A stretch of 64,000 nucleotides of DNA from Psychrobacter sp. ANT_WB68 (GTDB taxonomy: Bacteria > Pseudomonadota > Gammaproteobacteria > Pseudomonadales > Moraxellaceae): the NCBI RefSeq assembly GCF_008369115.1, contig NZ_VOAZ01000002.1, positions 372,001 through 436,000 of the forward strand, given 5' to 3'. The notes under the pieces were generated by a model. It saw only the letters and a program-made list of their open reading frames with translations, was not told the DNA's origin and did not search any database. Within the stretch, counting starts at the first letter, position 1. Every line of letters starts with the position of its first letter. The position numbers were made by a program, and so were the translations under genes. This document shows positions 37,599-47,406 of the stretch, piece after piece.

Positions 37599-37628
37599 TA
37601 AAAAGACTGTCTACGGATGGTCTTTTTT
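37599..37628 (+). terminator. aceF Rho-independent terminator, overlapping the left attachment site
   Basis: AAAAAGACTGTC (37600-37611 region) pairs with GATGGTCTTTTT around a TACG tetraloop, with two G-U wobble pairs in RNA, and a T-run follows. The 3' half of this terminator is the attL core of the integrated element. Confidence 0.85.
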
Positions 37629-37633
37629 ATTGT
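37610..37633 (+). repeat. attL core, 24-bp direct repeat
   Basis: It begins TCTACGGATGG and ends TTTATTGT, identical to 47383-47406. It lies inside the aceF terminator, so the chromosomal target is a terminator rather than a tRNA gene. Confidence 0.85.
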
Positions 37634-37680
37634 ATTAAGTAATTGTTTTAATTAACAATATTTTTATTTGAATTTGATTT

Positions 37681-37766
37681 GGTAGCCGTTTTGGTAGCCG
37701 TTTTGGTAGCCGTTTTGGTAGCCGTTTTGGTAGCCAGTAGCTTTAATTTTTGACTATTTGTAGCCA
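37681..37766 (+). repeat. Left-end 12-bp iterons (GGTAGCCGTTTT), candidate integrase arm sites
   Basis: Five head-to-tail copies start at 37681, 37693, 37705, 37717 and 37729 with a 12-bp period, the last one truncated. A degenerate GTAGCCA follows at about 37758. The same motif occurs twice at the right end (47243-47262), in the same orientation. Position and direct repetition suggest arm-type binding sites for the P4-type integrase. Confidence 0.6.
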
Positions 37767-37790
37767 TAGGAGAATTTAATTATTTATCTA

Positions 37791-37997
37791 TTAACTGTCA
37801 GGTTTACGAGCGTCAACGGTTCGGACAATTATATTTATCGGCCGCACCTCGTTATCATCAGTAACGCCCTTATCAAGTCCCAGTAGCTTTGCTTTTGACA
37901 TGGTAGCAGCAACCATAGCAGACGCCTGTCCATTGGCTTTGGCGGTCAATCTAGCATCGTCCAATTCTGTCATCAGGTCATCAATATTCATTTGCAT
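37791..37997 (-). CDS. Small element protein, KLLGLD family, paralogue 3
   Basis: The protein is 68 aa. The segment DDLMTELDDARLTAKANGQASAMVAATMSKAKLLGLDKG aligns with its two upstream neighbours. The pattern (helix, then S/A-M/I-V-A-T-M..AKLLGLDK) resembles the helical domain of small phage terminase-like or packaging-associated proteins; this is a weak family impression. GGGATA at the end of the previous gene could be its ribosome-binding site; an in-frame ATG two codons inside is an alternative start. Last gene of a four-gene operon. Confidence 0.6.
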   Translation of the reverse strand: MQMNIDDLMTELDDARLTAKANGQASAMVAATMSKAKLLGLDKGVTDDNEVRPINIIVRTVDARKPDS

Positions 37998-38000
37998 TCT

Positions 38001-38243
38001 TTATCCCATAATATTTTTATAGGCTTGGCTTGCGTCATTAGCTGATATTCCAGTGATATTAAATACTACTGGTTTGTTGTCTGCATAAACATCTTTCAGC
38101 ACTGGCTTATCTAACCCTATCAGCTTTGCCATAGTAGCAGTGGCTTGTATCATTGCAGACGGTTTGCGGTCGTCTATCGCTATCTGTCGAGCCTGTTCCA
38201 ACTGGTCAAGTAAGTCATCTAATGTTAATTTTCTAATAGTCAT
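38001..38243 (-). CDS. Small element protein, KLLGLD family, paralogue 2
   Basis: The protein is 80 aa. DDLLDQLEQARQIAIDDRKPSAMIQATATMAKLIGLDKP is clearly homologous to the genes on either side. The C-terminal part (VVFNITGISANDASQAYKNIMG) differs. Its start overlaps the stop of paralogue 1 by 4 bases (ATGA) and its stop lies 3 bp before paralogue 3, so the three are translationally coupled. Function is unknown; terminase-small-subunit-like or DNA-binding roles are possible. Confidence 0.6.
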   Translation of the reverse strand: MTIRKLTLDDLLDQLEQARQIAIDDRKPSAMIQATATMAKLIGLDKPVLKDVYADNKPVVFNITGISANDASQAYKNIMG

Positions 38244-38470
38244 GATTTTATAATCCGTTCGTTCTCATCAACTTTAGGCGCTACTAATCTTATCACTGTA
38301 GGTCTGTTTGCTATTGGCTCAACGTCTTTGAGCTGTGGCTTATCTAATCCTAGTAACTTGCTTTGGCTCATTGTGGCTGTGACTATGGCGTTTGGATTGC
38401 GGTCATCAATCGCTATCTGCTTTGCTAACTGTAAATCTTGGATCAAGTCGTTAATGTCAGGTAGTCGCAT
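38240..38470 (-). CDS. Small element protein, KLLGLD family, paralogue 1
   Basis: The protein is 76 aa. NDLIQDLQLAKQIAIDDRNPNAIVTATMSQSKLLGLDKPQ is the best match to the shared motif, and IAIDDR is identical in paralogue 2. The C-terminus carries VIRLVAPKVDENERI. It overlaps the zinc-ribbon gene upstream by one base (TAATG) and paralogue 2 downstream by four. The tandem set suggests repeated duplication inside the element. Confidence 0.6.
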   Translation of the reverse strand: MRLPDINDLIQDLQLAKQIAIDDRNPNAIVTATMSQSKLLGLDKPQLKDVEPIANRPTVIRLVAPKVDENERIIKS

Positions 38471-38937
38471 TAGTAGAATGTCCTTATCAGTTTGTTTGTC
38501 AGCTGCTCATACTCTACTAGCAGTCGCTCATATGTGCTGTGATGCATTCCTTTAGGACGTTCACCAATGCCATGAATAATCCCTACTTGCCAGCCTAAAC
38601 GCTCACGTAAGGCGTTCAGATTACTATAAATGCGGTCAATGGGTTGCTGTAACTGACTGCCATAATTTGCACCAATGCAATGACGGCAAACATATAAGCC
38701 AGCGCAATATAAGGTTGATGTTCTTTGATAACACTTAGGACAAAGCCACCAGTAACGATTACCGCCATAGTTGCATGATGTTTTTGTTAGCTGAATAGAG
38801 TATTGATAGGGTTTGCTGCGATGGGTGTAGCTTACTTCGATACTTTGAGCATTACCTTGTCTTAGCTGCTCACGATAGCGTGAGATAGGTAACTTTAAGT
38901 AGTCGTTTAGGCTGTGAGTAGTGGCAAGTGCTGGCAT
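38470..38937 (-). CDS. Zinc-ribbon phage/island protein
   Basis: The protein is 155 aa. A central treble of cysteines (RYWWLCPKCYQRTSTLYCAGLYVCRHC, about residues 65-92) forms a zinc ribbon followed by the GANYGSQ-type motif. This arrangement is common in small proteins of prophages and genomic islands. The N-terminus is basic and beta-rich (IEVSYTHRSKPYQYSIQLTKTSCNYGGNRYW). It is the first gene of the operon with the three KLLGLD paralogues. A nucleic-acid-binding or regulatory role is likely but unproven. Confidence 0.7.
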   Translation of the reverse strand: MPALATTHSLNDYLKLPISRYREQLRQGNAQSIEVSYTHRSKPYQYSIQLTKTSCNYGGNRYWWLCPKCYQRTSTLYCAGLYVCRHCIGANYGSQLQQPIDRIYSNLNALRERLGWQVGIIHGIGERPKGMHHSTYERLLVEYEQLTNKLIRTFY

Positions 38938-39129
38938 GTTATCTAAATCATTAACTAATTTGGTATATTATAACATTACAAATCAACTATGTGATTAAGA
39001 GCTATTGCATAAAACATAGTTATATCTATCGCATTGATTGCTAATTTGTGTACTTTAGTTGGTTTGTATAATACTATCTATAGTACAAATTAATTTAGTT
39101 ATCTTGACAAAATCACTAAGGTTTCATAT

Positions 39130-39363
39130 ATGAATAAATTCTTTATCATTAGTTCTTTATTAGTTCTTTATTAGTTCTTTATTAGTTTTTGCCTCAGTTC
39201 CTGCATCTGTATAATCAAGAAAGCTTATAGTTCGCAAAAATAAGAAATTTTCAGTGATCCGAAACTGAGTTAGAAGCTCATTACCAAAACCATTAAGTAT
39301 GCTGAACAAGAGATATCTAATCATTGGCTATGTACTGAAATGAACTTCAGTGAGCATGAGTAG
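39130..39363 (+). pseudogene. Decayed gene for a small secreted protein
   Basis: An ATG at 39130 with AAGG upstream encodes the start of a signal peptide (MNKFFIISSLL), but three 11-bp TTAGTTCTTTA repeats (39149-39187) shift the frame into a stop. Removing 22 bp restores MNKFFIISSLLVFASVPAS. Further on, coding-like sequence in frame with the TAG at 39361 reads KTIKYAEQEISNHWLCTEMN, resembling a mature exported domain. At least two lesions are present. Parent family not recognised. Confidence 0.5.
39149..39187 (+). repeat. 11-bp tandem repeat within a broken signal-peptide gene
   Basis: Three copies of TTAGTTCTTTA plus a partial fourth. Each unit changes the reading frame by two, so slippage can switch the frame. 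Confidence 0.8.
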
Positions 39364-39403
39364 CTAGTAAAATATTAACAATAAACATTAAAAAGGTTTC
39401 GCT

Positions 39404-39730
39404 ATGATCACTAACGTTATCCAAAAAGGCAGCAACATCTACATATATAACGAAAGAGGAGTGGTTCAAGCTCAGATTGGTTTAGGAATGGGGGAGAGGT
39501 CTGGTTTGAAAGGGTTCACTGCTCATTCAGTAAGTGTTCAGCAAGGTGATACGATTTGGAACTATGATGAACATGGTAGTCTTTACGGTCACGGAGTTTA
39601 TGTAGGCGATGGTGGATTGAGCTCTTCCAATTTTAGTTCTAATAGTTCATCAGAAGGTGGGAGTATTTGGGTTAGACTAATTGGTATTATCGGATTTATA
39701 GCTGCATATTACTTCTTTTTCCTAAAATAA
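39404..39730 (+). CDS. Small phage-type protein with duplicated motif and C-terminal membrane anchor
   Basis: The protein is 108 aa. Two related segments, KGSNIYIYNERGVVQAQI and QGDTIWNYDEHGSLYG, form an internal duplication with a pattern I associate with small prophage-encoded proteins in Moraxellaceae. A serine-rich linker leads to one C-terminal membrane helix (WVRLIGIIGFIAAYYFFFL). AAAAAGG precedes the ATG. It is isolated, next to the dead IS30 copy. Function unknown; it may be membrane-associated cargo. Confidence 0.6.
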   Translation: MITNVIQKGSNIYIYNERGVVQAQIGLGMGERSGLKGFTAHSVSVQQGDTIWNYDEHGSLYGHGVYVGDGGLSSSNFSSNSSSEGGSIWVRLIGIIGFIAAYYFFFLK

Positions 39731-39847
39731 CGATTTTATTAATACTTAGATTAACATATGAAGTGCAATTTCAAAGAGCAGGTGAAAAAGAGGCCTAGAT
39801 GCGCTAGCATCAAATCTACTATCCACCGCCAAAGTGACATTGCAACC

Positions 39848-40798
39848 ATGAGCTATACACATCTAAGCCTAGAGGAACGATATCAGATTTATGCCCTTAA
39901 AGGGGCACAACATAGTATTAAATTTATAGCAGGGGCGTTAGGCAGAAGTCCAAGCACCATATCAAGATAGCTTAGACGCAATAAAAGCCTACGAGGGTAC
40001 CGAGCAAAGCATGCAGACAACACAGCTAAAGCGAGGCGAGCAAATAATGCCTTCACCATCATTTTAAACGTCTGGGACTGGGTAGTGACTAAGCTTAAAC
40101 TGCAGTGGAGTCCTGAGCAAATAGCAGGCGTTCATAGTGGAGTCAGTCACATGAGTATCTATTGTTACTTATGGACTGATAAGAGGCAAGGCGGCACGCT
40201 ATGGCAATATTTAAGACGCAAAGCCAAACCCTATCGTCAAAGGCTTACCACTGAGACTCGTGGGCGTATTAATGACAGGATCTCAATTCATGAGCGCCCT
40301 CATGTAGTAAAAGAGCGATCCCGCATCGGTGATTGGGAAGCGGACACCATCATTGGTTAAAACCACAAACAAGCTATCTTGACAGTAGTAGAGCGAAAGA
40401 CAGGTTTGGTTAAGATGAAGCGAGTGACTAAAAAGAGTGCTCATCTGGTCGCGGATGCTATGGTAGTTATGCTAACTCCAGTGAGACTACACGTTAAGAC
40501 GATTACATCCGATAATGGCAAGGAATTTGAGGATCATAAAGCTATTAAGTAAAGACTCTATAGTGGGTTCTACTTTGCTGATGCTGATGCTGATGCTGAT
40601 GCTGATGCTGATGCCTCATGGCAACGAGGAACAAACGAAAATACCAATGGCTTGATTAGAGAGTACTTGCCTAAAGGATGTGACTTTAGACAAGTATCTG
40701 ATGATGAGGTACAAAATATTGAAGACAGATTAAACAACAGACCAAGAAAGCGTTTGGGGTTTAAAACGCCAAACCAGGTATTTTATTCCATTAATTAG
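39848..40798 (+). pseudogene. IS30-family transposase with three in-frame stop codons
   Basis: One continuous frame reads through the N-terminal HTH (LSLEERYQIYALKGAQHSIKFIAGALGRSPSTISR), the middle part (WSPEQIAG, IGDWEADTIIG) and the C-terminal DDE part (TSDNGKEFEDHKAI, ASWQRGTNENTNGLIREYLPKG). It is broken by TAG at 39968, TAA at 40358 and TAA at 40550. There is no frameshift: the expected residues (SRELRRN, IIGKNHK) suggest single G/A-to-T changes. A six-copy GCTGAT expansion (40577-40612) adds an Ala-Asp run before SWQRG. It cannot make active transposase. Confidence 0.9.
40577..40612 (+). repeat. GCTGAT hexanucleotide microsatellite in the dead transposase
   Basis: Six perfect copies encode (Ala-Asp)6 between the conserved YFA and SWQRG of the IS30 DDE region. 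Normal members have about one or two residues pairs here. Confidence 0.8.
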
Positions 40799-40843
40799 CG
40801 TTGCACTTGGTGTGTTAATCTAGGTTTATTTATATATCCATAG

Positions 40844-41075
40844 ATGGGGAAAATGGGGAAAATGGGGAAAGTAGGAAAGTGAGTTGCTAAAGCATTGGTA
40901 TATATGGGTTATAGTGTTTTCCCTTATAAATGCAAAAAGGCAAGTAAGGAAAGTTAGCAGCTGGTTAGCCGTTTACTTTCCCCACTTGCCTAGTGAGTCG
41001 ATAGGTAGGAAAGCTGGCTAGTGTATGCATAGCAAGCGTTCTAGCTGTTGTTTTCTCACTTTCCTAGTTTTCCCC
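40844..41075. other. Nested inverted repeats with GGGGAAA iterons, origin-like
   Basis: Three tandem ATGGGGAAA units (40844-40870) run into GTAGGAAAGTGAG. The complement of the resulting block recurs at 41055-41075 (CTCACTTTCC...TTTTCCCC), about 190 bp apart. Between them a second inverted repeat pairs GGCAAGTAAGGAAAGT (40939-40954) with 40975-40990. Further GGAAAG and TTTCC motifs are scattered through the segment. It directly follows the primase/helicase-like gene, as replication origins do in satellites. The origin function is inferred. Confidence 0.5.
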
Positions 41076-43184
41076 TTATCTAGCCGTTAATAGTTCAGGT
41101 CTTACTTGTATGGTTCTAGCCCTGCCATTGGTTATGATCTTAATATAACCCTCGCTTTCTAATACCTCAGCTATCAACTCAAAGTTATGCTTTTGCCGTA
41201 AATACTTAGGGGTAACCTTGCTTTGAGCCGTTGAATAAGCCAGTTCTTTAACGGACTGCCTATTGCAGTAATTCACTAGCCAGCTGATTAGCTTTTGAGC
41301 GTCATTATCACCAGATTGGGGCTTGTCAGTGTATCGCATACGCTCGCTTATCGAGTAGTCAGTCAATAGCGAGGCTCTATGTATATCTTCGGCTGATATA
41401 ACCCGTCTACCATCAAAGTAAGCAAGTATCGAGGCGATACGACTGGCATTTTCGTGTAAGCGTCTGGCATAGCTTGCATACTTCTCTAACTTACCGCCTT
41501 TGCATAACTGGCTTTCTTTATCGGTTTGATAATTGGCTAAAGCCTTTCTAGCCTGCCTATCTTTAAAGGGCATATTAAAGCGGATAATATTGCCCTCGTT
41601 ATCTCTCTCCACACTATCAGCAATGGGGTCTAGCAGCGTTTGGCATCGTTGCCAGTAAGCCTGCAATCTGGGGTCTTGTTCTGGTTTAGCGTCTAGCCTT
41701 TCATCAGTGTTATAAACTATTTGACCGTTCATATTGTCAGGAAAGGCAAACAGAAAACGAGGTAATAAGCCTTGACCGTTCATAGCCTCATCATTTAATG
41801 CTGGTGCGATTACTGGTGGCTGTCCTTGCAAGTCTAGGATAAACCTAACCCCATTCATGCTGTTTTGCTCTATGGTGTCATAACGAGGGGATAGTAGCCT
41901 ATCAAATGAGCCACTACTCCATATGTCACATATTTGGCTAATGTTACTTTTTGCGGTGTCACTGGTTAAGCTATGACCGCTTAGGAATAACGCTGCCTCA
42001 GCCGTTGACCATGCTATATCAGTAGTATTACCGATCAGCATATTGTCTAAAAAGCCTTGAATAGTGCCAGACTTGACTAAAAGTATAGATTGCTTAGGTT
42101 TGGGGTTTTCAAGTAACCATAGCTCTAAATCTTTTTTTGGTGTGCTGGCTTTTTGTGCAAGCCATTCATCTAGCAAGGTTCTGTATTCTTTGCGCTTGTC
42201 GTTTTGATAATTGAATAGCTCTTTATGGGTAAAATCTACCGTTCTACTTTTACCGCCTCCGCTTTCTGCCTCAGTGAGTAAAAATAGCGAGGCTGGCATA
42301 AACTTATCACCTAAAGCATAAGGGGCGTTTATGTATTGCTGAATAATAGTACCTAAAGCCCCTAGCATGCATTGCCCTGCCATTGCTGGCGGTACTTGTG
42401 CATGATAGGTAATTGCCGTTAAAGCATCTCTGAGTATCTCTCCATCGATGCCCCATGCCTCTACTGGGTAGGGTGTGGCTTTACTGTCTTGGTCTGCTAT
42501 ATCGCCTAACAGCCCCCACGCATCAGCTAACAAGTCTTTAATGATAGTTTCATGGTCATTTAAAACATCATCAAGCGTCTGGTAATTATCAAACCATAGC
42601 AGCAAGTCAAAAGTAGTTATTATCGCTTTGACGTTTACCCCTAGCAGTGGCTTGGTTAGCTGGTCTTTTTTATCTATGGTAGCAGTAATAATAACTCGCT
42701 TAACCTCTGCAAAATGCTTAACCATGTCATTAAAATGATAGGGGTTAATACTCACTAAAATAGTGACGTTTAGCCCTTGGCCTAATAGCTGCCTGTATAG
42801 CTCTATGCCTTCAGTAAGACTTTTTACTGCATACCAGTCACTATCTAAACTAAGATTACCAATAACAAAAGCACTGGGCTGGCTTGGGTCTGTTACCTCT
42901 ATGGGTTCATCACTATTAGGCGTATAAATGCCTATATTGGCTGGCTGGTGCAAGTTATTGCTTAATACTATAGCCACCTTGCCAGCGGTATCTACTATTT
43001 CACCTGATATGTAAAATTTAGCATTAAACTGTCGTATTTTATCGCCTTGACCTAGTGCTATAAGACTGGTTAATACTTCATCATTTGCTATAATCTTATC
43101 TGTAGTTTGCTTTGAAGTGCCTAGTAAAGTGTTAAGCCCCTTGTCATCAGCTTGGGGCTTTGCTTTGTCTGTATCATTCATCAT
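41076..43184 (-). CDS. DUF3987 (YfjI-like) primase/helicase-like protein
   Basis: The protein is 702 aa. The N-terminal about 220 residues look like a Toprim-type or bacterial-primase-associated domain (VTILVSINPYHFNDMVKHFAEVKRVIITATIDKKD). A P-loop TEAESGGGKSR lies near residue 308, followed by DUF3987 segments (STAEAALFLSGHSLTSD, ICDIWSSGSFDRLLSPRYDT, LDLQGQPPVIAPALND, LLPRFLFAFPD). The family is frequent in prophages and satellites as replication proteins. Its start overlaps the preceding 54-aa gene by four bases and the origin-like repeats lie immediately downstream. Confidence 0.8.
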   Translation of the reverse strand: MMNDTDKAKPQADDKGLNTLLGTSKQTTDKIIANDEVLTSLIALGQGDKIRQFNAKFYISGEIVDTAGKVAIVLSNNLHQPANIGIYTPNSDEPIEVTDPSQPSAFVIGNLSLDSDWYAVKSLTEGIELYRQLLGQGLNVTILVSINPYHFNDMVKHFAEVKRVIITATIDKKDQLTKPLLGVNVKAIITTFDLLLWFDNYQTLDDVLNDHETIIKDLLADAWGLLGDIADQDSKATPYPVEAWGIDGEILRDALTAITYHAQVPPAMAGQCMLGALGTIIQQYINAPYALGDKFMPASLFLLTEAESGGGKSRTVDFTHKELFNYQNDKRKEYRTLLDEWLAQKASTPKKDLELWLLENPKPKQSILLVKSGTIQGFLDNMLIGNTTDIAWSTAEAALFLSGHSLTSDTAKSNISQICDIWSSGSFDRLLSPRYDTIEQNSMNGVRFILDLQGQPPVIAPALNDEAMNGQGLLPRFLFAFPDNMNGQIVYNTDERLDAKPEQDPRLQAYWQRCQTLLDPIADSVERDNEGNIIRFNMPFKDRQARKALANYQTDKESQLCKGGKLEKYASYARRLHENASRIASILAYFDGRRVISAEDIHRASLLTDYSISERMRYTDKPQSGDNDAQKLISWLVNYCNRQSVKELAYSTAQSKVTPKYLRQKHNFELIAEVLESEGYIKIITNGRARTIQVRPELLTAR

Positions 43185-43345
43185 TGCCCCCCTTTATACT
43201 TGCCATGCTTTACCTGTGTTGCTGCCCGTTTGATTTGGTGGTAGCGTTGCATCTTTTTATCACGCCTTTTCTTTTCCCTGCCATGTATTGATTTAGCATA
43301 GGCAAGTTGAGCATCCATGAATGTTTTAGGGTTATCGCTGCTCAT
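43181..43345 (-). CDS. 54-aa basic protein, overlapping both neighbours
   Basis: It starts MSSDNPKTFMDAQLAYAK and ends KHGKYKGGQ, with a strongly basic middle (HGREKKRRDKKMQRYHQIKRA). The start overlaps the end of the 62-aa gene by 14 bases and the stop overlaps the DUF3987 start (ATGATGA). The overlaps at both ends and the lack of any other coding sequence here support it as a real gene. It may bind nucleic acid through its basic patch; family unknown. Confidence 0.6.
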   Translation of the reverse strand: MSSDNPKTFMDAQLAYAKSIHGREKKRRDKKMQRYHQIKRAATQVKHGKYKGGQ

Positions 43346-43520
43346 GACTTACCCCTTGCAATTGCGCTGGCTCGCAAGCGATCAATGCCAATGCTAAGCC
43401 AATGCCTATAACCCATGCCATAAAGATGATAAAGCTAAGTAGTAAGCCGCGTTTTTGCGGTTGGCTGGTGCTGTGTGGCCCGTGGCTGGATTTTGATTTG
43501 CTTTTGTTATCGTTGGTCAT
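43332..43520 (-). CDS. 62-aa single-pass membrane protein
   Basis: A polar, Ser/Lys-rich N-terminus (about 22 residues) is followed by one hydrophobic helix (GLLLSFIIFMAWVIGIGLALALIAC) and a short tail. The Cys after the helix is not a plausible lipobox because the N-terminus is too long and polar. It overlaps the preceding gene by 14 bases and the next by 14, inside the AlpA-DUF3987 operon. Function unknown. Confidence 0.55.
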   Translation of the reverse strand: MTNDNKSKSKSSHGPHSTSQPQKRGLLLSFIIFMAWVIGIGLALALIACEPAQLQGVSHEQR

Positions 43521-43785
43521 TTCTTACGTCCTCCACGTTAAAGGCTATTTCTGCTATGTTTTTCGATAACTCTTTGAGTGAACTTACTTGCCTATTAATT
43601 TTGGGTATCATTAACAGGTTTTGCATTTTGTTCTCAAGTTCTGCAATTTCTGTCATGGTGTTAATGATGGTTACATTGGCATGTAAGGTGATGATTAGCT
43701 GGTCGATGAAGTCATCAGGTATCATCAGCATGCCCTTATCTTTTAGCCCGTCCATCACTTGATTTATAAAGGTGTTATCACTCAT
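43507..43785 (-). CDS. 92-aa helical protein of the element operon
   Basis: It is almost entirely helical, with heptad-like hydrophobic spacing (VTIINTMTEIAELENKMQNLLMIP, INRQVSSLKELSKNIAEIAF) suggesting a coiled coil. There is no signal peptide and no recognisable motif. It overlaps its upstream neighbour by 8 bases and its downstream neighbour by 14. It shares composition and possibly ancestry with the preceding 91-aa protein. Function unknown. Confidence 0.55.
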   Translation of the reverse strand: MSDNTFINQVMDGLKDKGMLMIPDDFIDQLIITLHANVTIINTMTEIAELENKMQNLLMIPKINRQVSSLKELSKNIAEIAFNVEDVRNDQR

Positions 43786-44053
43786 GGCTTGTTACCTCCA
43801 CTGTTGGTAAGGTTATAAGCCCGTCCATCATTTCACTAACAATGCTTGCCAGCTCGCTATTAGCAAGTAAGGCGCTTCTAACTGCCACTATCACTCCCTT
43901 GCTTGCGTCATCATTGGTATTGATAGCACTAAGTGCCATTGCTAGGCTCTCCGCATCGTTTGATAGGTCTTGTATGCGGTCATTAATGACAGACAAGTAA
44001 TAACTATCTACTGCCACTAGGCGCGGTTCTAATATGTCGTTTGGCTGGCTCAT
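43778..44053 (-). CDS. 91-aa helical protein of the element operon
   Basis: It is acidic and helical (DRIQDLSNDAESLAMALSAINTNDDASKGVIVAVRSALLANSELASIVSEMMDGL). The pattern resembles small phage proteins that accompany replication modules, but I do not recognise a family. It overlaps the HTH_39 gene upstream by four bases and the 92-aa gene downstream by eight. Confidence 0.55.
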   Translation of the reverse strand: MSQPNDILEPRLVAVDSYYLSVINDRIQDLSNDAESLAMALSAINTNDDASKGVIVAVRSALLANSELASIVSEMMDGLITLPTVEVTSHE

Positions 44054-44286
44054 GATTGCACCCCACTAGCTAGATTATCGGCATCAATCCAATAAACATT
44101 CCAGTGCTTGCCGTCTTTATTTACTCGCTTGCGCTGTATGGTTAAGCCTGTATTTTCTAACTGATTAATGCGAGTGGGTAGCGTGGCTATTCTATAAAGT
44201 TCGATAGCTTGCCAGCGTGTGATTGATTGACCTGTCAAAAGATGATCTTTAATGATTTGGTTTTGGCTGCGTTTTAGCTTATCCAT
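44050..44286 (-). CDS. Winged-helix DNA-binding protein (HTH_39-like)
   Basis: The protein is 78 aa. IIKDHLLTGQSITRWQAIELYRIATLPTRINQLENTGLTIQRKRV fits the HTH_39 fold common in phage genomes (helix, S-I-T-x-x-x-A, recognition helix, then a wing). It is probably a regulator or replication accessory. It lies 2 bp after the alpA-like gene and overlaps the next gene by four bases. Confidence 0.72.
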   Translation of the reverse strand: MDKLKRSQNQIIKDHLLTGQSITRWQAIELYRIATLPTRINQLENTGLTIQRKRVNKDGKHWNVYWIDADNLASGVQS

Positions 44287-44288
44287 GA

Positions 44289-44543
44289 TTAAGCCCCCTC
44301 ACAATCTGATTGCTGACTTTCAATAAAGTGCAAAATATCGCTATTCCTAAACATAGGAATACCGTTTATATCAATTGGCTTAGGGAATTTGTCAGCTTTC
44401 CACCAGCGTCTTAGTGTTTGGTGGTGTAGTCCGATTAGTTCGGCTGTGGGCTGAATGCGTGAATAGCCTTGAGGGTTTAAAGGGGCTGGTTGCTCATCTT
44501 TAGCTTGATTGCTGTCATTGATTGTTGGATTGATATTGGTCAT
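44289..44543 (-). CDS. AlpA-like / MerR-type HTH regulator
   Basis: The protein is 84 aa. The first 28 residues are polar and disordered-looking. Then RIQPTAELIGLHHQTLRRWWKADKFPKPIDINGIPMFRNSDILHFIES forms an AlpA/excisionase-like winged helix. In P4-like satellites AlpA activates integrase or excision functions. It is the first gene of a seven-gene operon. Its AGGTGA ribosome-binding site lies inside a 9-bp inverted repeat, which may control translation or be an operator. Confidence 0.78.
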   Translation of the reverse strand: MTNINPTINDSNQAKDEQPAPLNPQGYSRIQPTAELIGLHHQTLRRWWKADKFPKPIDINGIPMFRNSDILHFIESQQSDCEGA

Positions 44544-44548
44544 AAGAT

Positions 44549-44578
44549 CACCTGTTAGTTAATGGTTAGTAACAGGTG
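44549..44578 (-). promoter_or_regulatory. Inverted repeat covering the alpA-like ribosome-binding site
   Basis: CACCTGTTA (44549-44557) and TAACAGGTG (44570-44578) are a perfect 9-bp inverted repeat with a 12-nt spacer. On the minus-strand mRNA the second arm contains AGGTG of the Shine-Dalgarno sequence, so a hairpin could hide it. Alternatively it is a protein operator. Confidence 0.5.
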
Positions 44579-44660
44579 TCATATTAGGTTTACGATAGGT
44601 AGGGCGGTAGCTGGGTATTCTAGCAATCAGGGGGCAATTCTAGAATTTAAGGGTCATTAC

Positions 44661-45752
44661 TTACAAATAATTTGAGTTTCCATTACTTAGCTCAACATAT
44701 ATCTTGTTCTTAATCTTTTCACGCTCAATAGTTTCATGCTTTTTATTGCCATAATCATTCCGAGCGCATCTATCAATGATTGCTTGTGGTACTGGATAAG
44801 AGTCTTTTAACCATTTATTAACTTGGTCCATCCTTAGTTCAAGATGGGGTAGTAGGTCAACTATCAACTTAGCTACTTGCTTACGCATTAACAAATTAGT
44901 GCCCTTATCGTAACTCCATATTTTTTCAGCTAAGGGGAATACAATATTTTGCATTTCAAGAGTGTATTTTTGAATAGGTGTTAATGTTAGTGGATATTCA
45001 TGTTTCACCAAGTTATCGGTTTCTTTATCCACAAGTATATTAGATGTTTGCATGTTTTCGAAAAAGCGCGCTAGTGCATCGCTATGCGTAGATGTGGAAT
45101 TATAAGCTTTTTCTTGTGCATCTAAATATTCGTATATTTTTATCATCGCTTGTTTTTGTATGCCATCAACGTCTTGTAGTCTTATCTTATTGTTAACTTC
45201 TACTTTTACGATCTGATTACAAGATATAATTTCATCGATTCTTTGTTGTGGTAAACCTGATACGAGATCACCTAACCTAAAAACACTACCGATAGAGCCT
45301 TGGCTGATATAGCAAAACCCTTTACCCATAGCCTCATGAGCTGCATATTTCTCTTTGAAACTAATTTGCTGTAAAGCTTGCGACTGGAATATCTCTAATA
45401 ATGAAAAGTAATAATCTTTATATTTTTCACGGGTTGAATAAGGAAACCCCATTATTATGCAAAAATCCGATGTTTTTGCTATATCGTTAAGGAAAATTTG
45501 AGTAGTTTCACATTCATTTTTATCATCACCTTTAGAACTAATATAACCCAAGTTTTTCTTATACATTACTGTGGTAGATGAAAATAAGCTTAGATTTAAA
45601 TAAGTTGTGATCTCTTCTAAATTTGACTGCTCAAAATCAACAAGCAGTTCTAGAAAATTACAAATATTTATGTACTGAGCTTCTGTATCTTCCTTATATG
45701 CTTTCAGGTATTCCTTAGCTGTCATTAAACTCACATTCACACCTTTACACAC
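44661..45752 (-). CDS. 363-aa orphan cargo protein of the element
   Basis: I recognise no family. It is cytosolic-looking with no signal or membrane helix. The N-terminal half is mixed (NICNFLELLVDFEQSNLEEITTYLN; FCIIMGFPYSTREKYKDYYF) and the middle has GKGFCYISQGSIGSVFRLGDLVSG. The C-terminus (LMRKQVAKLIVDLLPHLELRMDQVNKWLKDSYPVP) looks like a helix-turn-helix. The GTG start may be too early; an ATG at codon 10 is an alternative. It sits between integrase and alpA, the usual cargo position in P4-like satellites where phage-defence genes are found. More AT-rich than neighbours. Confidence 0.6.
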   Translation of the reverse strand: MCKGVNVSLMTAKEYLKAYKEDTEAQYINICNFLELLVDFEQSNLEEITTYLNLSLFSSTTVMYKKNLGYISSKGDDKNECETTQIFLNDIAKTSDFCIIMGFPYSTREKYKDYYFSLLEIFQSQALQQISFKEKYAAHEAMGKGFCYISQGSIGSVFRLGDLVSGLPQQRIDEIISCNQIVKVEVNNKIRLQDVDGIQKQAMIKIYEYLDAQEKAYNSTSTHSDALARFFENMQTSNILVDKETDNLVKHEYPLTLTPIQKYTLEMQNIVFPLAEKIWSYDKGTNLLMRKQVAKLIVDLLPHLELRMDQVNKWLKDSYPVPQAIIDRCARNDYGNKKHETIEREKIKNKIYVELSNGNSNYL

Positions 45753-45801
45753 CTTTTTATAAAATAAGGTGCAAGGCGCTGGCTGCTTTAAGGTGTGTAA
45801 A
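45744..45801. promoter_or_regulatory. 12-bp inverted repeat in front of the cargo gene
   Basis: TTTACACACCTT (45744-45755) and AAGGTGTGTAAA (45790-45801) are perfectly complementary, with further half-sites ACACCTTT at 45739 and AAGGTG at 45767. This clustering suggests an operator for an element regulator, or an attachment-related binding site. The first arm overlaps the 5' end of the cargo gene. Confidence 0.45.
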
Positions 45802-45893
45802 TCGCTGCCGTTCGGGTAATTAGTCCTAGCCTTGCAATTGGTACTGATAGCCCTTGAGCTGTCAAAACTGGTTCATCTGTTTATTATATGGCT

Positions 45894-47225
45894 TTAGCCG
45901 TGTTTTTGTTTGGCTGCTTTCTTAAAGTCTGCACGGATCACGTTATCAAACTTGCCAGCCTTAATATCGTCTAAGTAGTTGGCCCATGCTGTCATCATGT
46001 CCGCTCTTTGTTCTAAGCCTGTCATACGGTTGTATGCTGTACCATATGCGTTAAGCATGCGGTGGCCTAGTGCCAGTTCGGTTATCAGTTCATCATAGCC
46101 TAGTCGCTCCATTAGCATAGTTTTTGCGCTACTTCTAAAACCGTGTGGGCTGTGAATATCTTTATAGCCTTGTCCGTTATTCATTAGATCACTATTCAAT
46201 ACTTTGTTGATTGCTTGCGTATGGTGATAAGGCTCTTTTTTGCGTCTTGGGTTATGAAATACATAGTCGCTATCACCTGTAAGCGGCTTCATCTGCTCTA
46301 ATATGGCAATGGCTTGCGGTGCTAGGGGTATAACAATACTGGCTACCATGTCGGCCCTGTTACCTGCTTTCTTTGGCTTAAGTTCCCATTGTTTTTTAAA
46401 CCAATTAATATCTGTCCACTTCATAGCACACATGTCACCAACTCGAACAAACGTTAATGCTAATAGCTGCAATACGCGCTTATTGTGTAGCTGGCTTGCA
46501 TCGTCTAGCTGGTCAATGTCTTTTAGCAGTTCGGCAAATTCTTTAGGGTCTGTTAGTGCTGCATGATGTTTTACTTTGTGATTAATAAGTGTCCCTTGTA
46601 GGTCGCTGGCTGGGTTGTACTCAATAATCATATGAGCCTTAGCAATCTGTAGAATACTTTTTAATATAGTTTTGACCTGCAAGCCCTTATATGAATATGT
46701 CTTTTGTATGTCTTTAATAAACTTAATGACGATACTAGGGCTAATATCTGTCACTTTCATATTTCCTAGTTGTTGCTGGATAGGCTTTATTGCAATGTTA
46801 ATGTTTTTGATACTAGACGGTGATAAGTTTTTGCTGTGCTGTACTTCTAACCATTCATTGATGAAATTATTTAAGGTGTTTTGGCGGTCTGTTATGTCTT
46901 TTTGCTTGGTATCGGCTCTATGCTCTATTGGGTCTATGTCTTTGGCTAACAGTTGCATGTTATCGCTGTGATATTGACGGGCATCGGCAAGGCTTAACGC
47001 TGGGTATTGTCCTAGCGTCATGTAAGGGCGTTTGCTTGTGATGGGGTGTGTGTAACGGTGTCTAAAATCGGCTGTAGCGTCTGGGCTATCTTTGTGTGGT
47101 CTTATGCGTACCTCTAAGCCTTTATAGCCGGCTATAGGGTAACTGATAGTCTTGCCAGCTTTGATAGTGTCTTTGATTGCCCGTTTGATTTGGGTATCAG
47201 TTGTTAAGTCTATTTTGATTGTCAT
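45894..47225 (-). CDS. int: P4-type tyrosine integrase
   Basis: The protein is 443 aa from the ATG at 47223-47225, which has AGGTGATAAG upstream. An earlier in-frame start is rejected because its codons (NGYQNGYQ) are the arm-site repeats. An N-terminal DUF4102 arm-binding domain (GYKGLEVRIRPHKDSPDATADFRHRY, LGQYPALSLADAR) is followed by a SAM-like core-binding domain. The catalytic domain contains the Arg box (LLALTFVRVGDMCAMKW), HGFRSSAKTML and GHRMLNAYGTAYNR with the nucleophilic Tyr. It should integrate the element at the aceF terminator. Confidence 0.93.
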   Translation of the reverse strand: MTIKIDLTTDTQIKRAIKDTIKAGKTISYPIAGYKGLEVRIRPHKDSPDATADFRHRYTHPITSKRPYMTLGQYPALSLADARQYHSDNMQLLAKDIDPIEHRADTKQKDITDRQNTLNNFINEWLEVQHSKNLSPSSIKNINIAIKPIQQQLGNMKVTDISPSIVIKFIKDIQKTYSYKGLQVKTILKSILQIAKAHMIIEYNPASDLQGTLINHKVKHHAALTDPKEFAELLKDIDQLDDASQLHNKRVLQLLALTFVRVGDMCAMKWTDINWFKKQWELKPKKAGNRADMVASIVIPLAPQAIAILEQMKPLTGDSDYVFHNPRRKKEPYHHTQAINKVLNSDLMNNGQGYKDIHSPHGFRSSAKTMLMERLGYDELITELALGHRMLNAYGTAYNRMTGLEQRADMMTAWANYLDDIKAGKFDNVIRADFKKAAKQKHG

Positions 47226-47242
47226 CTTATCACCTGCAAACT

Positions 47243-47262
47243 GGTAGCCATTTTGGTAGCCG
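47243..47262 (+). repeat. Right-end copies of the GGTAGCC repeat, candidate integrase arm sites
   Basis: GGTAGCCA-TTTT-GGTAGCCG, two copies 12 bp apart in the same orientation as the left-end array. They lie 18 bp upstream of the integrase start, so integrase binding could also repress its own gene. Confidence 0.6.
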
Positions 47263-47382
47263 TTCAATTGGCTTTTTCACACTTGCACTAACGTTATCAC
47301 AAGTAACATATTAGCACTAAAGGTATGTAAAATAAAGGCTTTGAGATTATCAGGTTTTATCAGGCTTTATCAAAAAACGCCA

Positions 47383-47406
47383 TCTACGGATGGTCTTTTT
47401 TATTGT
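47383..47406 (+). repeat. attR core, 24-bp direct repeat
   Basis: Identical to 37610-37633. The preceding element-side bases (CGCCA) differ from the aceF side (GACTG), which places the crossover within the repeat. Confidence 0.85.

Follow-up and report, generated by a model that had tools for sequence, protein, structure and literature searches.

A candidate phage satellite of Psychrobacter with several shortened terminase small subunits that differ in their tails

Between aceF and ompW in Psychrobacter sp. ANT_WB68 lies an element of 9,773 bp, bounded by exact 24-bp direct repeats, within the 64,000-nucleotide stretch of DNA analysed here (the window; contig NZ_VOAZ01000002.1, positions 372,001 to 436,000). 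It is likely a phage satellite, because no genes for particles or conjugation were recognized in it and because it encodes three shortened terminase small subunits (TerS), T1, T2 and T3, with tails of three phage kinds. The best reading of the sequence is that it resembles the phage-inducible chromosomal minimalist islands (PICMIs) and phage-inducible chromosomal islands (PICIs) and would redirect packaging through a split, multi-tailed TerS. In this reading, to which we give a probability of about 0.55, the three proteins, which lack the DNA-binding helix-turn-helix (HTH) of TerS, would dock through their different tails onto the terminase large subunits (TerL) of different helpers. A preliminary description of this DNA had mentioned neither the three TerS-derived genes, nor the terminator nature of the attachment (att) sites, nor a degenerate insertion sequence (IS) in the element.

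By sequence, T1 to T3 are the C-terminal half of TerS without the HTH. Searched against phages at E ≤ 1, T3 matched 52 records, 45 of them named TerS; the other seven were a 'gp1', an unannotated record and five hypothetical proteins, one of them directly before TerL and two of the other four overlapping the start of TerL. For T1, 51 of the 60 records listed, of 129 in all, were named TerS, with a best E value of 6e-11, and the matches of T3 on non-Psychrobacter plasmids were annotated 'terminase small subunit' in 10 of 10 records. When a T profile was compared with six TerS, the probability was 99.3%, and the reversed control gave 0.1%. One phage TerS of 137 aa, encoded directly upstream of TerL, aligns through its residues 69-136 with T1 at 62% identity (68 residues); Pfam Terminase_2 spans its residues 5-88. 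In 14 phage TerS frames, taken from stop to stop, 70 to 112 residues stood ahead of the T-matching part. The T proteins start at a 'TVDDLL' boundary just past the HTH of TerS, and the N-terminal HTH is missing from 25 of 25 aligned T proteins.

What is left is an oligomerisation hairpin followed by a C-terminal tail. The AlphaFold model of T3 is a helical hairpin (predicted local distance difference test score about 85-92), which fits the expectation for the TerS oligomerisation core (PMC9611059). Other searches added little: the T model gave no fold match in the PDB at E ≤ 0.001, the T profile found nothing useful among PDB sequences, and a PHROG scan of 25 T members returned weak, scattered matches only. 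Phage Pmp4 has an annotated TerS-like gene of 102 aa; in the open literature, as far as its text was available, the only HTH-less or satellite TerS found was that of the Rhodobacter capsulatus gene transfer agent (RcGTA).

At least four kinds of tail follow the core of the T proteins. Tail A (T1 here) matches the TerS of prophages in genomes G077 and G035 and of the IMG/VR phage L210, tail B (T2 here) that of prophages in this genome (G000; C1:1069094) and G091, tail C, seen in relatives of the element, that of G009 and G063, and tail D (T3 here) TerS of the phiAC-1, AP22 and ES18 type. The test of this resemblance was devised after it had been noticed by eye, and it compares short peptides: 57 unique tails from 33 loci of the neighbouring zinc-ribbon gene, ZN, were scored against the C-termini of 17 TerS and of 300 controls, which were drawn singly from clusters of open reading frames (ORFs) of at least 100 aa. 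Its T genes were found by profile, its TerS set included non-Psychrobacter phages, and the G035 TerS was in the wrong frame. Our results showed that 49 of the 57 tails scored higher against TerS than against any control: 19/19 A tails (scores 52-75, best controls 29-39), 4/4 B tails (43-50 vs 32-40), 16/17 C tails (31-54 vs 31-41), 5/5 D tails (42-47 vs 28-35) and 5/12 unassigned tails. A smaller, earlier run with 12 Psychrobacter TerS, G035 in the correct frame, and 300 controls gave 28 of 32; it omitted T genes hidden by antisense ORFs, and of the four tails that failed, three were of type D and one came from locus L086.

Tail class tracks TerL class at the level of sequence. With TerL taken as the first ORF of at least 320 aa in each stretch (Pfam confirms those of G000, L210, G077 and G035), identity within a class was 62-68% for A (G077/G035/L210), 88% for B (G000/G091), 79% for C (G009/G063, assigned by position) and 51-91% for D (phiAC-1, AP22 and a Salmonella plasmid phage). 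The class A TerL had no BLAST match to those of B, C and D, and Kintu matches it at 44-47%; the TerL of B and D resemble each other distantly (32-37%). Among the A-tail TerS, that of L210 and those of G077 and G035 (the G035 protein without a Pfam match) differ in body yet share the tail and have similar TerL, which indicates that the tail goes with the motor.

The tails of one module are seldom alike. The 33 ZN loci carry no T gene in 3 cases, one in 8, two in 12, three in 9 and four in 1. Of the modules with at least two T genes, 21 of 22 hold only different tail types, the exception having two unassigned tails; shuffling predicts 13.2, and none of 5000 shuffles reached 21, in a test that treats related sequences as independent and ignores shared ancestry. 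T1 is the last gene and nearly always has tail A. Tail D, on the other hand, occupies different positions (T3 here, T2 in L003, and in L087 and L100 the final core or the one before it), a sign that tails have been swapped, and L100 holds tails B, C, D and A together. A candidate helper, judged by its genes, resides in the same genome: the packaging genes of a prophage (L258, G000:C1:1068800-1073800) comprise a tail-B TerS (Terminase_2), a Terminase_3 TerL, a portal and a Mu-F-like head protein. As far as this genome was searched, no class A, C or D helpers were seen as prophages.

The T genes seldom stand apart from ZN, which lies upstream within 1.5 kb at 54 of 60 T places in the 105 genomes of the genus surveyed. 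ZN is a predicted DNA-binding protein. It had been called a zinc-ribbon, phage-type protein in the preliminary description; CxxC motifs are indeed visible in the alignment, and no significant Pfam, PHROG or NCBIfam match stands behind them. All 14 of its relatives in the phage collection are streptococcal, with identities of only 27-33%, and 12 of these records are named satellite phages, the other two being further phages. These relatives, together with the TerS-derived genes beside ZN, lend strong support to the earlier proposal of a helper-dependent satellite. No close ZN relative was confirmed in IMG/VR, and a wider protein search (868 matches) yielded no function from the 120 matches listed. 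In Javan538 the ZN relative is unannotated and in SA-TP1 it is a hypothetical protein (L147:8312-8632, L203:5213-5710); it follows the primase and has no clear Pfam family.

The element occupies a site that is usually empty. In the survey, which measured the distance between aceF and ompW, the two convergent genes were less than 1 kb apart in 81 of the 105 genomes, and most empty junctions viewed had a single copy of the aceF intrinsic terminator, compared to two in the window. Distances of 1-30 kb were found in three genomes: this one (9,945 bp), G101 (8,451 bp) and G010 (1,095 bp). In the remainder the genes were on different contigs (9) or far apart (4), or there was no match for ompW (7) or aceF (1). 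The related element of G101 (L087) at the same site has an integrase 94% identical to that of the window and a DUF3987 protein only 37% identical, so that modules have been exchanged among elements. The direct repeats reported earlier were verified as exact, and both the empty junction and the gene order proposed for a search were found in relatives. The repeats fall within the aceF terminator (Table 1).

Table 1. Features of the element, in window coordinates
Feature	Coordinates	Strand	Remarks
att repeat, aceF side	37610..37633	n/a	inside the aceF intrinsic terminator, hairpin 37600-37627
TTTTGGTAGCCG 12-bp repeat, five copies	37680..37735		predicted integrase arm-type sites
T1	37791..37997	-	HTH-less TerS core + tail A (ending IIVRTVDARKPDS)
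T2	38001..38243	-	HTH-less TerS core + tail B (KPVVFNITG type); resembles TerS of own prophage
T3	38240..38470	-	HTH-less TerS core + tail D (PTVIRLV type); resembles ES18/phiAC-1/AP22 TerS
ZN	38470..38937	-	zinc-ribbon protein, 155 aa; predicted DNA-binding partner
108-aa ORF	39404..39730	+	cargo, no family match
Degenerate IS	39744..40825 (about)		25-bp imperfect inverted ends; transposase frame split into several ORFs; presumably IS30 family
DUF3987 protein	41076..43184	-	primase/helicase-type replication protein, 702 aa
Four small overlapping genes	43181..44053	-	54, 62, 92 and 91 aa; conserved in many relatives
HTH_39 protein	44050..44286	-	winged helix, 78 aa (Pfam/PHROG)
AlpA-like HTH protein	44289..44543	-	regulator/excisionase, 84 aa
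363-aa protein	44661..45752	-	variable slot between int and alpA; no significant family
Tyrosine integrase	45894..47267	-	true start may be the ATG at 47225 (443 aa)
TTTTGGTAGCCG 12-bp repeat, two further copies	47242..47263		at the integrase end
att repeat, ompW side	47383..47406	n/a	replacement half-hairpin supplied by the element, hairpin about 47372-47401

From the integrase end, the genes run int, 363-aa cargo gene, AlpA-like HTH, winged HTH_39, the four small genes and DUF3987, then the degenerate IS, and beyond it the 108-aa ORF and ZN-T3-T2-T1. ZN and T3 overlap stop to start (TAATG), as do T3 and T2 (ATGA), and T1 begins 3 nt past T2. Most of what had been noted of this content held. 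The integrase at one end is a tyrosine integrase with Arm-DNA-bind_3 and Phage_integrase domains (PF00589, 55.7 bits, cut-off 27.1), and the DUF3987 replication gene is clear (E 7.8e-40; PF13148, 137.6 bits, cut-off 27, Pfam). The AlpA-like regulator is a weak assignment: it has a PHROG excisionase/regulator match (1.7e-5), and Pfam HTH_17 (PF12728) gives 18.7 bits, under its cut-off of 27; in the relative L003 the same family reaches 35.4 bits, above it. The reported lack of capsid, tail, relaxase and type IV secretion system (T4SS) genes was upheld: no such family, nor any portal or other phage structural or lytic family, was found in the 14 element proteins (Pfam, PHROGs) or in 10 of them (NCBIfam). 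P4 carries capsid-size and regulatory genes such as sid, psu, delta and epsilon; no family of these was found among the 14 proteins, although small diverged genes could evade these libraries. PADLOC, run on 10 proteins that were mostly from cargo slots and included the 363-aa protein, detected no defence family; a weak Csx1 match appeared in one relative. A run of GATGCT hexamer repeats lies within the degenerate IS transposase (window 40576-40612).

The integrase belongs to a group that appears at intrinsic terminators. Integrases at least 50% identical to that of the window occur at 15 loci, the window included. Repeats were resolved at 11 of them (about 6 distinct sites); L004 showed none, and three were truncated where a contig or stretch ends. 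All 11 resolved loci have the repeat within a terminator-like hairpin, at attL as well as at attR (scores 11.4-17.1), and in 10 of 11 both ends score at least 11.9. This score was reached by 49 of 1,500 random positions, and by att pairs of other integrases at both ends in 0 of 11 and at one end in 11 of 11; a single such end is expected where the site follows a tRNA or tmRNA gene. In this group, 12 of 12 loci for which both ends are available contain the word TGGTAGCC, or its complement, at each end. No other integrase locus has it at both ends, and two have a single copy at one of them. TGGTAGCC is predicted to be an arm-type site of the integrase. No literature on terminator-targeting integrases of this kind was found, as judged from titles and abstract openings.

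Relatives of the DUF3987 protein are present in 59 of the 105 genomes at E ≤ 0.001, many of these matches spanning only the first ~200 residues of other primases. They carry varied integrases, at terminators or beside tmRNA, tRNA-Pro, tRNA-Arg, tRNA-Leu and tRNA-Met genes, and att repeats were resolved for part of the tRNA and tmRNA loci. ZN was found in 28 of the genomes, T in 26 and both in 23. Of 92 further ORFs in 14 related elements, 70 were scanned together with three proteins of the window; no structural family was found with Pfam (14 families, all seen), nor among 25 of the 41 PHROG families, the rest having one member each and E values of about 4e-5 to 1e-3 if sorted as they appear to be. 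A weak PHROG 'terminase small subunit' match (8e-4), seen in the table of the first family member, is an AlpA-type HTH. With flanks annotated unsystematically, some of these relatives may lie within a larger prophage or an integrative and conjugative element (ICE).

The ZN-T module is also carried by Psychrobacter plasmids of 4.6-6.5 kb, and in 6 of the 7 opened it is preceded by RepM and an inovirus-type Gp2 protein. A Legionella plasmid region has the order int, FRG, hypothetical gene, AlpA, primase, ZN. Several further loci were observed. Plasmid pA32H2 (L205; 6.5 kb) encodes a 933-aa protein with ZN and T-like genes, RepM and Gp2 not being annotated, and is perhaps intermediate between the islands and the RepM plasmids. 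This genome has a second related element of about 10.4 kb at tRNA-Pro (L069; G000:C5:68500-88400), with a 21-bp repeat, a DUF3987 protein 41% identical, a truncated ZN and no T found. In G048 (C5:73736-80876, L101) the Gp2-ZN-T unit is present in two copies, whose ZN proteins are identical and lie 3,688 bp apart, ~3 kb from an integrase; we regard this as a tandem dimer of a small plasmid-like unit, either integrated or an effect of assembly. Small, non-mobilizable plasmids of Arsenophonus nasoniae (NZ_CP123519, NZ_CP123517 and NZ_CP123540; 7.9-11.6 kb) carry a TerS gene, with no TerL annotated on the 7.9-kb plasmid, and are possibly packaged plasmids.

A satellite of this kind might work as follows. 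By analogy with PICMIs and PICIs, infection by a helper, or its induction, would lead the AlpA-like protein and the integrase to excise the element, and the DUF3987 protein would replicate it. The hairpin cores of T1 to T3, equivalent to the TerS oligomerisation core, may assemble into either a separate or a mixed ring, and ZN, encoded just upstream with a stop-start overlap, may give the DNA recognition that they lack. Each tail would recruit the TerL of one helper class, as the C-terminal region of TerS binds TerL in lambda and P22 (PMC9611059): A that of L210/G077/G035-type phages, B that of the own-prophage type, and D those of ES18/phiAC-1 types. We put a more general form of the idea forward tentatively, at somewhat less than even odds. 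It holds that TerS has been split into modules, with ZN reading the satellite DNA and cores with swapped tails reading the motors of up to four phage classes, a multi-helper ticket for a satellite or small plasmid, and that the integrase group is specialised on intrinsic terminators and rebuilds the terminator at both ends.

Several observations weigh against the proposed adaptor function. Many DUF3987 relatives are without both ZN and T, and ZN stands without T inside 300 bp at 15 of 41 places, several of which are fragments or contig ends. ZN may have a role other than partner of T, because its DNA binding is a prediction, its AlphaFold model (itself weak) found no PDB fold at E ≤ 0.001, and no T is annotated next to its relatives in Legionella, in rhodobacterial plasmids or in those streptococcal satellites that were opened. 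A search of the 105 genomes at E ≤ 0.01 yielded no full-length TerS having a core of the T type. Nor was a cos/pac-like sequence common to islands and plasmids found within 600-700 bp of the module; the one word that they share upstream of ZN probably belongs to coding sequence. The window's own T2 passed the tail test narrowly (43 vs a best control of 40), the class C TerL of G009 has no Pfam match, the ancestry shared by related modules bears on the count of different tails, and the element contains the degenerate IS, which separates the replication gene from ZN.

The main rival to the adaptor reading is that the T proteins block packaging, headless TerS tails competing for the TerL of invading or resident phages as a multi-phage defence module with a Ppi-like outcome. 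We consider this unlikely, though it deserves serious attention: an HTH-less T alone would be dominant-negative, several tails would broaden the range of phages stopped, and small plasmids, which also carry the module, might retain it as a defence. Satellites do target this step, Ppi and RppA binding the helper TerS (PMC11921389). However, a blocker leaves the usual partner ZN unexplained, which fits a replacement DNA-binding unit and has relatives in satellite phages, and it need not be tied to integrase/replication islands or to plasmids without other transfer genes.

Less probable still is a satellite of the PICMI or PICI kind that is packaged otherwise, by its own pac or cos site or unselectively, with ZN-T acting in replication or regulation. 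The kit of int, AlpA-like gene and DUF3987 equals the PICMI model, in whose description the word terminase is absent from the main text (PMC10803314), and a Gp2-like replication gene precedes ZN on 6 of the 7 Psychrobacter plasmids opened; the homology to TerS and the TerL-class-specific tails would then go unexplained. That the element is a decayed or cell-bound island that has lost mobility is very improbable, despite the degenerate IS and the presence of an element at the site in only 2 of 105 genomes (contig breaks could hide more), because the integrase, DUF3987, AlpA, ZN and all T frames are open, the att repeats are exact and other species have close relatives integrated elsewhere. A conjugative or mobilisable island (ICE or integrative and mobilizable element) was dropped as a candidate, no relaxase or T4SS family having been found, and the earlier suggestion of a mobilizable island thus has no support from gene content.

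If the adaptor reading is true, it bears on how a satellite keeps several helpers. From sequence alone, the array could then be read as a code for the likely helpers, here pointing to a prophage in the same genome, and it would offer a transfer route for small 'non-mobilizable' plasmids. It would also be natural evidence that the tail of TerS, rather than its body, specifies the motor, because different TerS bodies share a tail when TerL is similar.

Among known systems, the element is most readily compared with the PICMIs of Vibrionaceae, with which it shares the integrase, DUF3987-type primase, small size and lack of capsid genes, along with a putative AlpA-type regulator (PMC10803314). An AlpA of family PF05930 or PF12728 and a DUF3987 or DUF5906 primase are among the markers of PICMIs. 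It differs in lying in the aceF terminator, not next to fis, and in having more genes than the six-gene prototype, plus ZN and the TerS-derived genes. A new type for Moraxellaceae, as first suggested, is therefore true in part: the core kit is that of PICMIs, whereas the TerS-tail module appears new. With PICIs it shares int at one end, cargo slots and, as far as Gram-negative PICIs go, a putative AlpA; PICIs also redirect helper packaging at the TerS step, including the Staphylococcus aureus pathogenicity islands (SaPIs) with a TerS of their own and E. coli PICIs with Rpp (PMC6092414, PMC11921389). The SaPI TerS homologue recognises its own pac site, in contrast to the HTH-less TerS halves here, which come as one to four paralogues with differing tails. 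Streptococcus satellite phages (the Javan series and SA-TP1) likewise have an integrase, a primase and a ZN relative after it, but no T-like gene is annotated in two Javan records or SA-TP1. RcGTA gp1, a short TerS, starts at the coiled-coil region and interacts with TerL through a C-terminal domain (PMC6854486), although it is a single gene of a gene transfer agent and not an array borne by a satellite. The same ZN-T module with the same tail types is found on small Psychrobacter plasmids with RepM and Gp2-like genes (pA22P3, pA25P1, pA19P1, p4 and others), in which plasmid replication replaces the integrase and DUF3987.

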